In this document: piece by piece, positions 38,585-51,200 of the stretch
Numbering within the stretch: position 1 is the first letter of the stretch
Layout of the letters: the number at the start of each line of letters is the position of its first letter
From: Sinotaia quadrata
Taxonomy: Eukaryota; Mollusca; Gastropoda; Architaenioglossa; Viviparidae
Assembly (NCBI GenBank): GCA_028829895.1
Contig: CM054179.1
Span: forward strand, 105,972,875 to 106,036,874
Direction: 5' to 3'
Length of the DNA stretch: 64,000 nt
Position numbers and translations under genes: made by a program
Notes under the pieces: model-generated
The model's input: only the letters and a program-made list of their open reading frames with translations
What the model was told of the DNA's origin: nothing
Database searches by the model: none

Positions 38585-39224
38585 ATGATGGAGTTATTTG
38601 AGGAAGAGTTATCTGAGTTGCTGTTGTTTGGTGTAAATTATCAGCCAAATTCCTTCAAAAGGAAGGAGTTTGAATCGAAGCGAGTATTGTATTACAACGG
38701 ATTTAATAAAGAAAATAAAGAAAGTGAAAAGTATTGTGAATTTACTATCTTTGATGACGATACTTATAAACAGCCAGAAAGGGGAAATAAAAATGCAAGA
38801 GAAAAGAAAAAAAAGCCAAAGAAAACCTCCCCTAAAAGTCGCACCAAAGAAGCGGTCATGGGTAAAGAGATTCCCATGGCTGACTATTTATACACGGTGA
38901 GGAACATCACTCACATAGTAATAATGAATGCATGCTCATTTCTCCTGATGTGTGAGGAACTAATTGAAAGAAGAGCTGCTTTAAGACAGGTGTTTGGAGA
39001 GAAAGTTCCTCACAGAATGAAAATTGCAATAATCAACAAATCGGATGAATCTAACTCTAAACTAGATGAGTGGAGAACAAAGCTTGAGGGCAACAATATT
39101 GAAATTATTGATCTTCAAAAATCCGATTACGAAATTTTGTTGAAAAATCCTGTTGAATTAACCGGTGATTTTTGGAGGAAAGGAAGAAAAGGTGACATGC
39201 TGGAACTTCTAAAGCTCCGAGGTG
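38585..39224 (+). CDS. Gene B exon 1: N-terminal pseudo-deaminase-like domain
   Basis: The exon has 213 codons, starts at tandem ATGs after a GC-richer leader and ends phase 1 before GTAAGT. Residues 1-20 could be helix 1; 31-58 hold two strands ([21 protein letters not shown]). Residues 70-89 are a basic, NLS-like insert ([10 protein letters not shown]). 107-117 is a strand ending NACSF, 119-137 a helix, 145-153 a strand (MKIAIINKS), 157-169 a helix ([12 protein letters not shown]) and 172-187 the IEIID...DYEILL element. The strand/helix order and the last segment resemble AID/APOBEC (cf. GLRxLxxxGVxIxIM...Y in the family). HxE is absent and PCxxC is reduced to one Cys (SFLLMC), so it should not bind catalytic zinc. 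Another alpha/beta fold is possible. Confidence 0.72.
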
Positions 39225-48200: not shown

Positions 48201-51200
48201 CCTGAAGTCCAAGCTAAATGGGGCGAACAAAATACAAGCCCTTAATGCAAACGCAATACCTGTAGTAAGCTACACTGGAGGTATCATAGATTGGACAGCA
48301 AATGAAATAAATGAACTGGACAGGAAAACAAGAAAACTACTCACAACACATAAAGCCTTACACCCCAAAGCAGACGTAGACAGGCTCTATGTATCTCGAA
48401 AAATGGGAGGCCGAGGTTTGAAGAAAATCAAACATGTCATTGAAGGAGAAGTCATTGGCCTTGTGGACTACATCTGGAATAACAACAAAGATGATCCACT
48501 GATAGAAGCAGTAAAGATGAGTGGACTATTCCAACCCCCAGAAACAAAGAAACATGGAAGAAAACAACGAAGCAAGAACTAGCACATACCTGGAGCCAGA
48601 AACCTCTGCATGGCCAATATGTATGACACGCCGACGAAATATCAACAAAGCAATCAACGTACAAATGGTTGAAAGAGTCAGGATTGAAAGCAGAAACAGA
48701 AGCACTCATAACAGCTGCACAAGAGCAAGCACTCAACACCAAATCACACAAAACAAAAATCATGAAAATTTCAAATGATTCCAAATGTAGACTCTGCAAA
48801 TCCATGGATGAGACAACAGAACACATACTATCTGGATGTCAGGTTCTGGCTGGAACAGAATACACCAAACGACACAATGAAGTGGCAAAACACATACATA
48901 GAAATCTGTGTGAGAACTATAGCATAAAAACCCCAGAAAGAGCATGGATGCATCAACCAGAAGCAGTCACTGAAACAGAAGAAGTCAAAATACTATGGGA
49001 CTTCGAGATAAGAACAGACCGGGTGATTCCTGCACGAAGACCAGACATTGTAGTTCTCGATAGGTCCAACAGAACAGTAACAATTATTGATGTCGCTGTT
49101 CCAAGTGATAGAAACATACAAACAAAAGAAAGAGAAAAAATAGAAAAATACCAAGACCTCAGATTAGAAATCCAGAGACTGTGGAACGTAAAAGCAGAAG
49201 TGATACCAATTGGGGAACATAACATCTGAATTGGAAGGCTACCTGAATAAACTCCCTGGAAACCACAGACTTGCTCCACTACTCAAAGCAGCGTTCCTCG
49301 GAAGTGCCCACATCCTCCGTAAAACCTTGGATCTCCCAGAATCTTGGTAAGATTCCGAGACCTTGGATCACAACCGACAGTCAAACAGAAGTCGTGGAAA
49401 GAGACTGGATAATAATAATAATAATAAAATTTGACACATCTTGAAACTAAACTACTGGCCAAATGTAATACTCTAAAGTGCCTATATACAAAACCCACTA
49501 CACTCTTATAATTAGACACTTATGCTAATAAAGTGCGACACACAATCTATAAAGCTAGAGTTATTAAATTCTTTCAGGAATCTATAATAAGTCTGATTTA
49601 CAGAACAACAAACTCTGGCACGTGAACACTTTTTTACCTGTTTTTAATGCAAAATTAATTCAATATAATTTGTATTCGTTTTTCTACAGGAGCCGCGCCA
49701 ATTCACCAGGCTCACCTGTCCAAGAATTTTATTTTAATTTTACACGCCCTAGTTAATTACGTTAGGCTGCACGCCATGAATGCCTTCATTGTACCCGGTT
49801 CTCATTCGGTCAGGAACCCGATCTGGACGTCGGAAGTTTATGTCATCATTAGAATTTTTGAGAATGGAGAAGAAATAATACGTAGGCTTTTTAAAAATAA
49901 GAAACGCCAGCATGCGGAGGACGTTTGTTTGGAAGCTTTGAAAGATCTGATGAAAGACAAAAATACCGTCAACTGGCACATGATGATGTATGTCAGTTAT
50001 TCTCCATGTTATGAATGTAGTCCCAAAATTATTAAATTTATTGAAGAAAAGAAAATATCTTTAGATCTAAGGTTTCATACTTTGTTTCAAATGAATCGAG
50101 AGTCCTGCAAAAGAAATAATTGTAACTGCATGAAACAAAAAAATCACGATCAAAATAAGAAAGAACTTATTCACATGAAGCACAACCCCCAGATTGATAG
50201 CATATGGATTGTGGCTGCGGATGAAAGGCGGGAGCTTAGTGAAGTATTACAACTTAATTTATCGGAAGCCATTCTAGAAAAACTTAATCAACTAAAATAC
50301 AAGGACGGCATCGAAATGGAATCGGACGCTAAGGATCTCGGGATATTAAAAGGTAAGCGAGAATACATTTAGACGAAACCCTTTTGTGAATGAGTGATGA
50401 GGAAGTAAATGAGTAACTGAGTGAATGGATGAGTGCTAATGCATCTACCTCTGAACTGATGGTTTTAATATACTGTTAAAAAGTAAATTTTAGATAATTT
50501 TATGAAGTTTAGTCAGATAATCCAGTGAGATGTCTTAGTGAGTTTTCAAAGTTACATAATAAAACCGATGGTGAAAGAAAGCATTTCAATAAAATAGTCA
50601 GTTTAATTTTCTTTATTACAATGCGATTAATGTGAAGAAATATTTAATTTATTAAATAGACATTTTTAATTTGAATCTCTTACTATTATTAATAATATCA
50701 GACAAACAATTGCAATAATATTTTGTCCATTACTTTGCAGATTTTGATGATGACAGTGAAGATGATGTGCCCGACAACCTCGATATACTTTCCAAAGCAG
50801 GTCATTCAACATCGCTTTTCATTCAATTGTACACATTCATAATTTGTCTGTCATTCTCGCTGTCTTTGGGTGATGTACGTTACATATCAGGTCATTCACA
50901 TATTCATATCTTTTCAATTAATATATAAAATTCACAATTTTCTTGTCATACACAAGATTGACCTAGTTGTGTGAGGGTTCGTCTGTTCTATTCACGGTAT
51001 AATTGATTACTCCAAAAGGTAATTCATATTGTTAGTCATATAAAGTGGGCAAGCAAAAAGTACATAAGCAAATAAACAAACTTCCAAAGAAATTATACGA
51101 TACAAATTAACAGTAACCGATTAATGTTGTTTCAAATGAGTAAATGAACATTTCATCAGAATCTATAAACATCAGCATGACCTGAGTTGATATTTACTTA

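Follow-up and report, generated by a model that had tools for sequence, protein, structure and literature searches.

In vertebrate APOBEC3G, APOBEC3F, and APOBEC3B, an inactive N-terminal domain precedes an active C-terminal domain. The metazoan AID/APOBEC-like deaminases, including the SNAD4 and NAD1 families, were reportedly described by Krishnan and colleagues in 2018. AID/APOBEC-like enzymes are also reported from sea urchin and brachiopod (Liu et al., 2018; PMC5956068); in the brachiopod Lingula anatina, the protein LaAIDL1 carries a tandem pair of deaminase domains (PMC5956068). A signal peptide is the defining feature of SNADs (PMC11004436), and three molluscan APOBEC3-like genes are described in Aplysia (PMC9334734). 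A two-domain invertebrate deaminase as such is already known from LaAIDL1 (PMC5956068), and the picture of single-domain invertebrate AID/APOBEC-like proteins in the earlier note, to which the arrangement looked new, is incomplete.

Here we describe a locus of the snail Sinotaia quadrata. The window, that is, the whole stretch of 64,000 nucleotides analyzed, corresponds to C3:105,972,875-106,036,874 of a 984-Mb genome in 26 contigs. From its sequence and from structural modeling, gene B and its tandem copy, gene A, may be two-module members of the AID/APOBEC family in which exon 1 would encode a deaminase module that has decayed, a reading that we favor tentatively and rate just short of an even chance. 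Feature coordinates are collected in Table 1.

Gene model and tandem copy

Gene B is modeled with 11 exons, in which every junction is AG/GT and phase 1, and 637 residues are followed by a stop codon. Six small candidate exons, mostly acidic, lie between exons 1 and 8, all of them in phase 1 with AG/GT borders, in line with the acidic multi-exon linker proposed in the earlier note. The small exons were picked by eye and the exon model is a candidate, above all for exon 7; direct joining of exon 6 to exon 8 is also in phase. The gene had been placed at 38585..50352. Its start ATG and the end of exon 8 stand at these positions, but gene B probably continues through candidate exons 9-11 to a stop at 55393.

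Table 1. Positions of the features of genes A-E (window coordinates, except for genes D and E)
Feature	Position	Strand	Description
Gene A exon 1, 3' part	1..348	+	Begins some 310 bases before the window; open throughout
Gene A exon 8	15035..15700	+	AID/APOBEC domain, HAE...PCNLC; Pfam SNAD4 5.6e-12; 78% identical to B
Gene B exon 1	38585..39224	+	213 codons plus one base; ATG 38585, phase-1 donor at 39224; candidate degenerate AID/APOBEC-like module
Lys-rich, NLS-like basic insert	38783..38848	+	Residues 67-88, contains KKKKPKK; kept in gene A (translations, alignment of exon 1 copies)
Gene B exon 2	39739..39789	+	Acidic linker; AG/GT, phase 1-1; gene A copy identical
Gene B exon 3	40357..40497	+	Acidic linker; AG/GT, phase 1-1; one 3-nt indel vs gene A
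Gene B exon 4	41000..41074	+	Acidic linker; AG/GT, phase 1-1; 9-nt indel vs gene A
Gene B exon 5	41574..41657	+	Acidic linker; AG/GT, phase 1-1
Gene B exon 6	44605..44691	+	Acidic linker; AG/GT, phase 1-1
Gene B candidate exon 7	45076..45090	+	15 nt, least certain; AG/GT, phase 1-1; gene A copy identical
Gene B exon 8	49690..50352	+	AID/APOBEC deaminase domain; intact HAE...PCYEC; Pfam and PDB matches
HAE	49911..49919	+	Zinc-binding His and catalytic Glu, assigned by homology; read from sequence
PCYEC	50004..50018	+	Two zinc-ligand cysteines (roles by homology); read from sequence
Gene B candidate exon 9	50741..50800	+	Acidic; AG/GT, phase 1-1; gene A: no blastn match
Gene B candidate exon 10	52246..52308	+	Coiled-coil-like by eye; AG/GT, phase 1-1; gene A copy with 1-nt indel
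Gene B candidate last exon (11)	55359..55393	+	Stop codon; AG acceptor, in phase; gene A: no blastn match
Gene C	58658..59382	+	Third AID/APOBEC gene; open frame, possible ATG 58658, CAE...PCFTC; Pfam APOBEC_N 1.1e-10, SNAD4 1.4e-10; phase-1 donor at domain end
Genes D, E	L011:1032-1730; L011:9137-9901 (-)		CAE-bearing deaminase ORFs downstream of the window

A tandem duplication spans much of the window, and the main collinear pieces of genes A and B are approximately 83-94% identical among the self-BLAST matches listed. In gene A, the counterparts of exons 1-8 and 10 have AG/GT borders at matching places, and exon 1 is open up to the donor in both genes. Across exons 1-8, the two genes differ by five indels, all of them triplets (15, 3, 3, 9, and 3 nt); in the four intron stretches compared, 5 of 17 indels are triplets. 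An additional one-base difference in the exon 4 comparison is an artifact of the end coordinate set for the A copy. Exons 9 and 11 of gene A were not found by blastn, and its copy of exon 10 (23929-23992) carries a one-base indel that shifts the frame, so the C-terminus of A would differ from that of B. The dN/dS ratio between the two genes is near 1 (0.85 for exon 1, 1.22 for exon 8, and 1.06 together, with a bootstrap range of 0.71-1.85), which fits an arms race or relaxed constraint alike.

On the basis of splice phase, conserved borders, and the triplet-only indels in the duplicate, the assignment of exons 1 and 8 to one phase-compatible gene model, duplicated as a unit, is well supported, in line with what had been proposed from the sequence. 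It is improbable that exon 1 is a separate gene, or that the mature mRNA lacks a junction between the first module and exon 8: the intermediate exons are indeed short and chosen by eye, and a retroelement remnant lies in the long intron before exon 8, but the phase-1 AG/GT junctions throughout the model, the borders and frames of exons 1-8 kept in gene A, and the stop-free run of exon 1 to its donor in either copy all argue against such a separation.

Several repetitive features were observed in the window. The remnant in intron 7 of gene B (47875-49226) is of the reverse-transcriptase type by eye, and a zf-RVT match (6.5e-6) falls in 48627-49226 with 27.2 bits, slightly below the cut-off of 27.5. 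Self-BLAST detected tandemly repeated stretches at 62506-64000 and 29800-30378, and several introns contain TATC/TGTC microsatellites.

The exon 8 domain and the deaminase gene cluster

Exon 8 of gene B matched the Pfam families SNAD4 (2e-14), NAD1 (3.6e-13), APOBEC_N (3.8e-12), and APOBEC2 (8.1e-12), and its scores for SNAD4 (54.2), NAD1 (50.4), and APOBEC_N (47) exceeded the gathering cut-offs of 27, 27, and 25, respectively. A sequence search of the PDB gave APOBEC3H at 1.7e-6, and a search of NCBIfam gave no match. The AID/APOBEC motif is defined as H[AVS]E-x(24-36)-PCxxC in the accessible part of PMC5956068, and exon 8 has HAE, 28 residues, and PCYEC. These results strongly support the assignment of exon 8 as an active-looking AID/APOBEC domain that retains the residues of HAE and PCxxC, as the earlier note proposed. 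By homology, exon 8 would bind zinc via His75, Cys107, and Cys110 of the exon and would use Glu77 for deaminating cytosine in single-stranded DNA or RNA.

Downstream of PCxxC, exon 8 of genes A and B (49689-50354 and 15034-15702 for B and A) reads C-x4-C-x-C and then H, and genes C, D, E, and I read C-x4-H-x-H and then H at the corresponding place. The His-to-Cys changes in A/B are matched, and because both His are replaced by Cys, a putative second, structural metal site is suggested. Metal-binding inserts in the AID/APOBEC family are said to have been described by Krishnan and colleagues in 2018.

When the genome was searched with exon 8, seven matches were obtained at E 0.001, all on C3 at 105.67-106.05 Mb. 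In the DNA around these matches, the open deaminase ORFs number at least nine (A, B, and C in the window, D and E downstream, and F-I upstream), and there is one broken copy; within 105.69-105.89 Mb there was no further ORF match below E 0.1. All eight ORFs run against Pfam, that is, all but H, matched AID/APOBEC families, and gene H lies near gene F on the tree. In this tree, genes A and B, which sit on a long branch, form a group with C, D, and E at a support of 0.992.

The broken copy (L012:6503-7269) adjoins open ORFs of the cluster and points to birth-and-death turnover of the genes. In C, D, and E, the HAE of the other cluster ORFs is CAE, that is, the zinc-ligand His is replaced by Cys. 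Cysteine takes the place of this histidine in free-cytidine deaminases, and the substitution in C, D, and E may change activity or substrate. Elsewhere in the genome there are 102 TIR-domain matches at E 0.001, many of them in dense clusters (C1:109.5-110.0 Mb, C7:52.4-52.9 Mb, and others), which represents a large TIR expansion, probably of Toll-like receptors.

Identity of the exon 1 module

Exon 1 occurs in two copies in the genome, which are 86% identical; three further matches, at E 0.38 or worse, contain stops. Its proposed layout comprises a b1-b2 hairpin (residues 33-57), the Lys-rich insert, and an a/b core (98-187). The NLS-like Lys-rich run that had been pointed out is present, and the reported lack of HxE was confirmed; PCxxC is absent as well. 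The stretch SFLLMC, taken previously for a reduced PCxxC, is not a conserved remnant of a zinc site, because its last Cys is Tyr in gene A. The predicted start of gene B (11 residues) is acidic and not signal-like on inspection.

In Pfam, neither copy of exon 1 matched an AID/APOBEC family, the best row below the cut-off being Cyclin_N2 (0.021 for B and 0.0057 for A). NCBIfam gave no match for exon 1, which is uninformative because exon 8 was missed too. Against the PDB by sequence, the best E was 0.81 for exon 1 alone, and the two-copy profile gave no significant row (best E 0.031, a CAAX protease). A protein database returned nothing for exon 1 (239 candidates) and nothing at E 0.001 for the alignment of the nine deaminases (4485 candidates). 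Since even sure deaminases found no relatives there, this database seems to be poor in animal proteins, and the absence of exon 1 relatives in it means little.

We compared exon 1, as a two-copy query, with a profile of the nine local deaminases using hhalign. The score was 19.1 (P 0.054), which was equaled by 7 of 300 full-column shuffles and 2 of 300 window-20 shuffles, these and the following fractions being raw values from several tests on one sequence; the reversed exon scored 14.1, and true cluster deaminases reached 131 to 415. None of 40 decoy ORFs exceeded 19.1, the best scoring 19.06. The decoys were single sequences, so the single copies are the fair comparison, and these scored 18.5 (B) and 18.3 (A), under the best decoy. 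With one decoy scoring above the single copies, our confidence in a degenerate deaminase, and in the APOBEC3G-like reading built on it, was lowered and that in an unrelated module raised.

The signal comes from the N-terminal part. Residues 1-90 alone were equaled by 1 of 200 shuffles; for residues 88-213, the half that holds the 20-residue element considered AID/APOBEC-like in the earlier note, 133 of 200 shuffles equaled the deaminase score, so that no signal is seen there. When a hand-entered human AID sequence was added to the profile, 1 of 300 shuffles did as well, and with AID alone 44 of 300. No signal was obtained in hhalign global mode (215 of 300) or with a home-made PSSM alignment, either against TIR or against deaminase, where 61 of 120 shuffles or more did as well. 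The aligned part is the first ~60 residues, in which the b1-b2 hairpin (VLYYNGF and a further 12 residues) is set against GLH...W...VYA...IF of the family. HMMER aligned both copies to the same hairpin of the local profile, with 1.5-1.8 bits and rank 70 among 1092 mostly random ORFs. In a forced profile alignment, GKE of exon 1 stands opposite HAE (His replaced by Gly, Glu kept) and FL-LM opposite PCYEC, with the zinc ligands gone; when exon 1 was aligned with three deaminase exons in five rows, the active-site region fell out of register, and this alignment was kept out of the folding.

The AlphaFold2 model of exon 1 has the element order a1-b1-b2-a2-b3-a3-b4-a4-b5-a5-a6, which follows the AID/APOBEC order, at a pLDDT of 40. 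A matched control, a true deaminase exon, reached 38.8, and because it scored equally low, the fold test lacked power. Foldseek with the exon 1 model gave non-significant rows for AID (rank 10) and APOBEC2 (ranks 13, 22, and 50). At the top of the fold lists, likewise without significance, stood domains of the ERCC1/Mus81 type (from E 0.067) and a designed Rossmann fold. Among VIA rows, AID/APOBEC accounted for 17 of 50 with the control deaminase and 1 of 50 with exon 1, both models having low pLDDT. In the structural check suggested in the earlier note, the element order fitted the proposal, and AID and APOBEC2 came up among non-significant rows.

A decayed deaminase module is no more than suggested by the b1-b2 profile signal, the predicted element order, and the donor in phase 1 with which the module ends; the silent C-terminal half and the lack of a family match weigh against this part of the earlier proposal. 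Such a donor, at the domain end after a Leu-rich stretch, is shared by exon 1, exon 8, and gene C, and a simple pattern search gave a phase-2 candidate in gene D and none there in genes E-I. The same silent half and missing family match, together with the best Foldseek rows for ERCC1 and Mus81-Eme1 (E 0.067-0.11), would fit an unrelated alpha/beta module as the fusion partner of the AID/APOBEC domain, such as a lineage-specific domain or a pseudo-nuclease fold like that of ERCC1/Mus81, which would serve in targeting or binding. We regard this as a serious possibility, if not a probable one; its fold rows are non-significant and come from a pLDDT-40 model, and the hairpin signal and element order favor a deaminase.

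A TIR domain, which would make a TIR-deaminase fusion, is very improbable. By eye, a 22-residue stretch (box-2-like GKEI) and DFW (box-3-like FW) resemble TIR boxes 2 and 3 of TLR sequences, and TIR genes are abundant in this genome. Against a TIR profile of six rows (four stretches from the same genome and the PDB TLR chains 1fyv and 7ylf), however, exon 1 scored 11.4, a value equaled by 213 of 300 shuffles in one test and 211 of 300 in another, and the TIR assignment was rejected on sequence. The exon 1 locus is also absent from the 102 genomic Pfam TIR matches, the predicted element order (pLDDT 40) lacks aA and bB, and no TIR is found among the best 50 rows of either fold list.

The decayed-deaminase identity of exon 1 is less secure than the predicted activity of exon 8. 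Under this reading, with the His of HAE changed to Gly and the PCxxC cysteines replaced in the profile alignment, the module would bind no zinc and be inactive. Its basic insert would let it serve in nucleic-acid binding, localization, or dimerization, comparable to the inactive first domain of APOBEC3G, with a flexible acidic linker tying it to the active exon 8 domain; viruses or retroelements would be the likely targets. A double-domain APOBEC3-like protein, with two deaminase domains in one polypeptide, hinges on the identity of exon 1, and the gene model supports the single polypeptide.

Comparison with known deaminase systems

An APOBEC3G-like division of labor may have evolved independently in an invertebrate, with a zinc-dead deaminase module beyond family-model recognition, a Lys-rich insert, an acidic multi-exon linker, and a live deaminase, in a tandem cluster whose open deaminase ORFs, at least nine in number, include three with Cys for His in HxE; we consider this conceivable but somewhat doubtful. 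Gene B is securely a new member of a known enzyme family. What would be new beyond that is the zinc-dead first module together with the Lys-rich insert and the acidic multi-exon linker, inside such a cluster. A literature search, covering mainly openly accessible papers and parts of papers, turned up no invertebrate AID/APOBEC whose N-terminal module is described as inactive. A decayed deaminase in exon 1 would mean that the inactive-plus-active layout of APOBEC3 evolved convergently outside the vertebrates, and the locus would then offer a natural case in which a non-catalytic deaminase domain was kept, a test of the purpose of such domains. Should exon 1 prove to be of another kind, the locus still joins a new fusion partner to a tandem AID/APOBEC cluster and suits the study of mutation-based innate defense in invertebrates.

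Among the described systems, the SNAD4/NAD1 families resemble this locus in that exon 8, as well as the eight cluster ORFs run of nine, matches their Pfam models; unlike SNADs, gene B has no signal peptide evident at its start, by inspection only, and carries an extra N-terminal module. The Aplysia APOBEC3-like genes are likewise invertebrate AID/APOBEC genes and are filed as antiviral, whereas a two-module architecture is not described for them in the accessible part of that paper (PMC9334734). LaAIDL1 is similar as an invertebrate AID/APOBEC-like protein with two deaminase modules, the first of which is only proposed in gene B. According to the accessible part of its description, both LaAIDL1 domains have putative active sites, which were mutated together (PMC5956068); in contrast, the first module of gene B has no zinc ligands and only a proposed identity, and the protein has the acidic multi-exon linker and the Lys-rich insert in addition. 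APOBEC3G, APOBEC3F, and APOBEC3B share with this locus the proposed inactive-then-active layout and the tandem gene expansion, but both domains of APOBEC3G match the local deaminase profile, whereas exon 1 is recognized by no family model tried.
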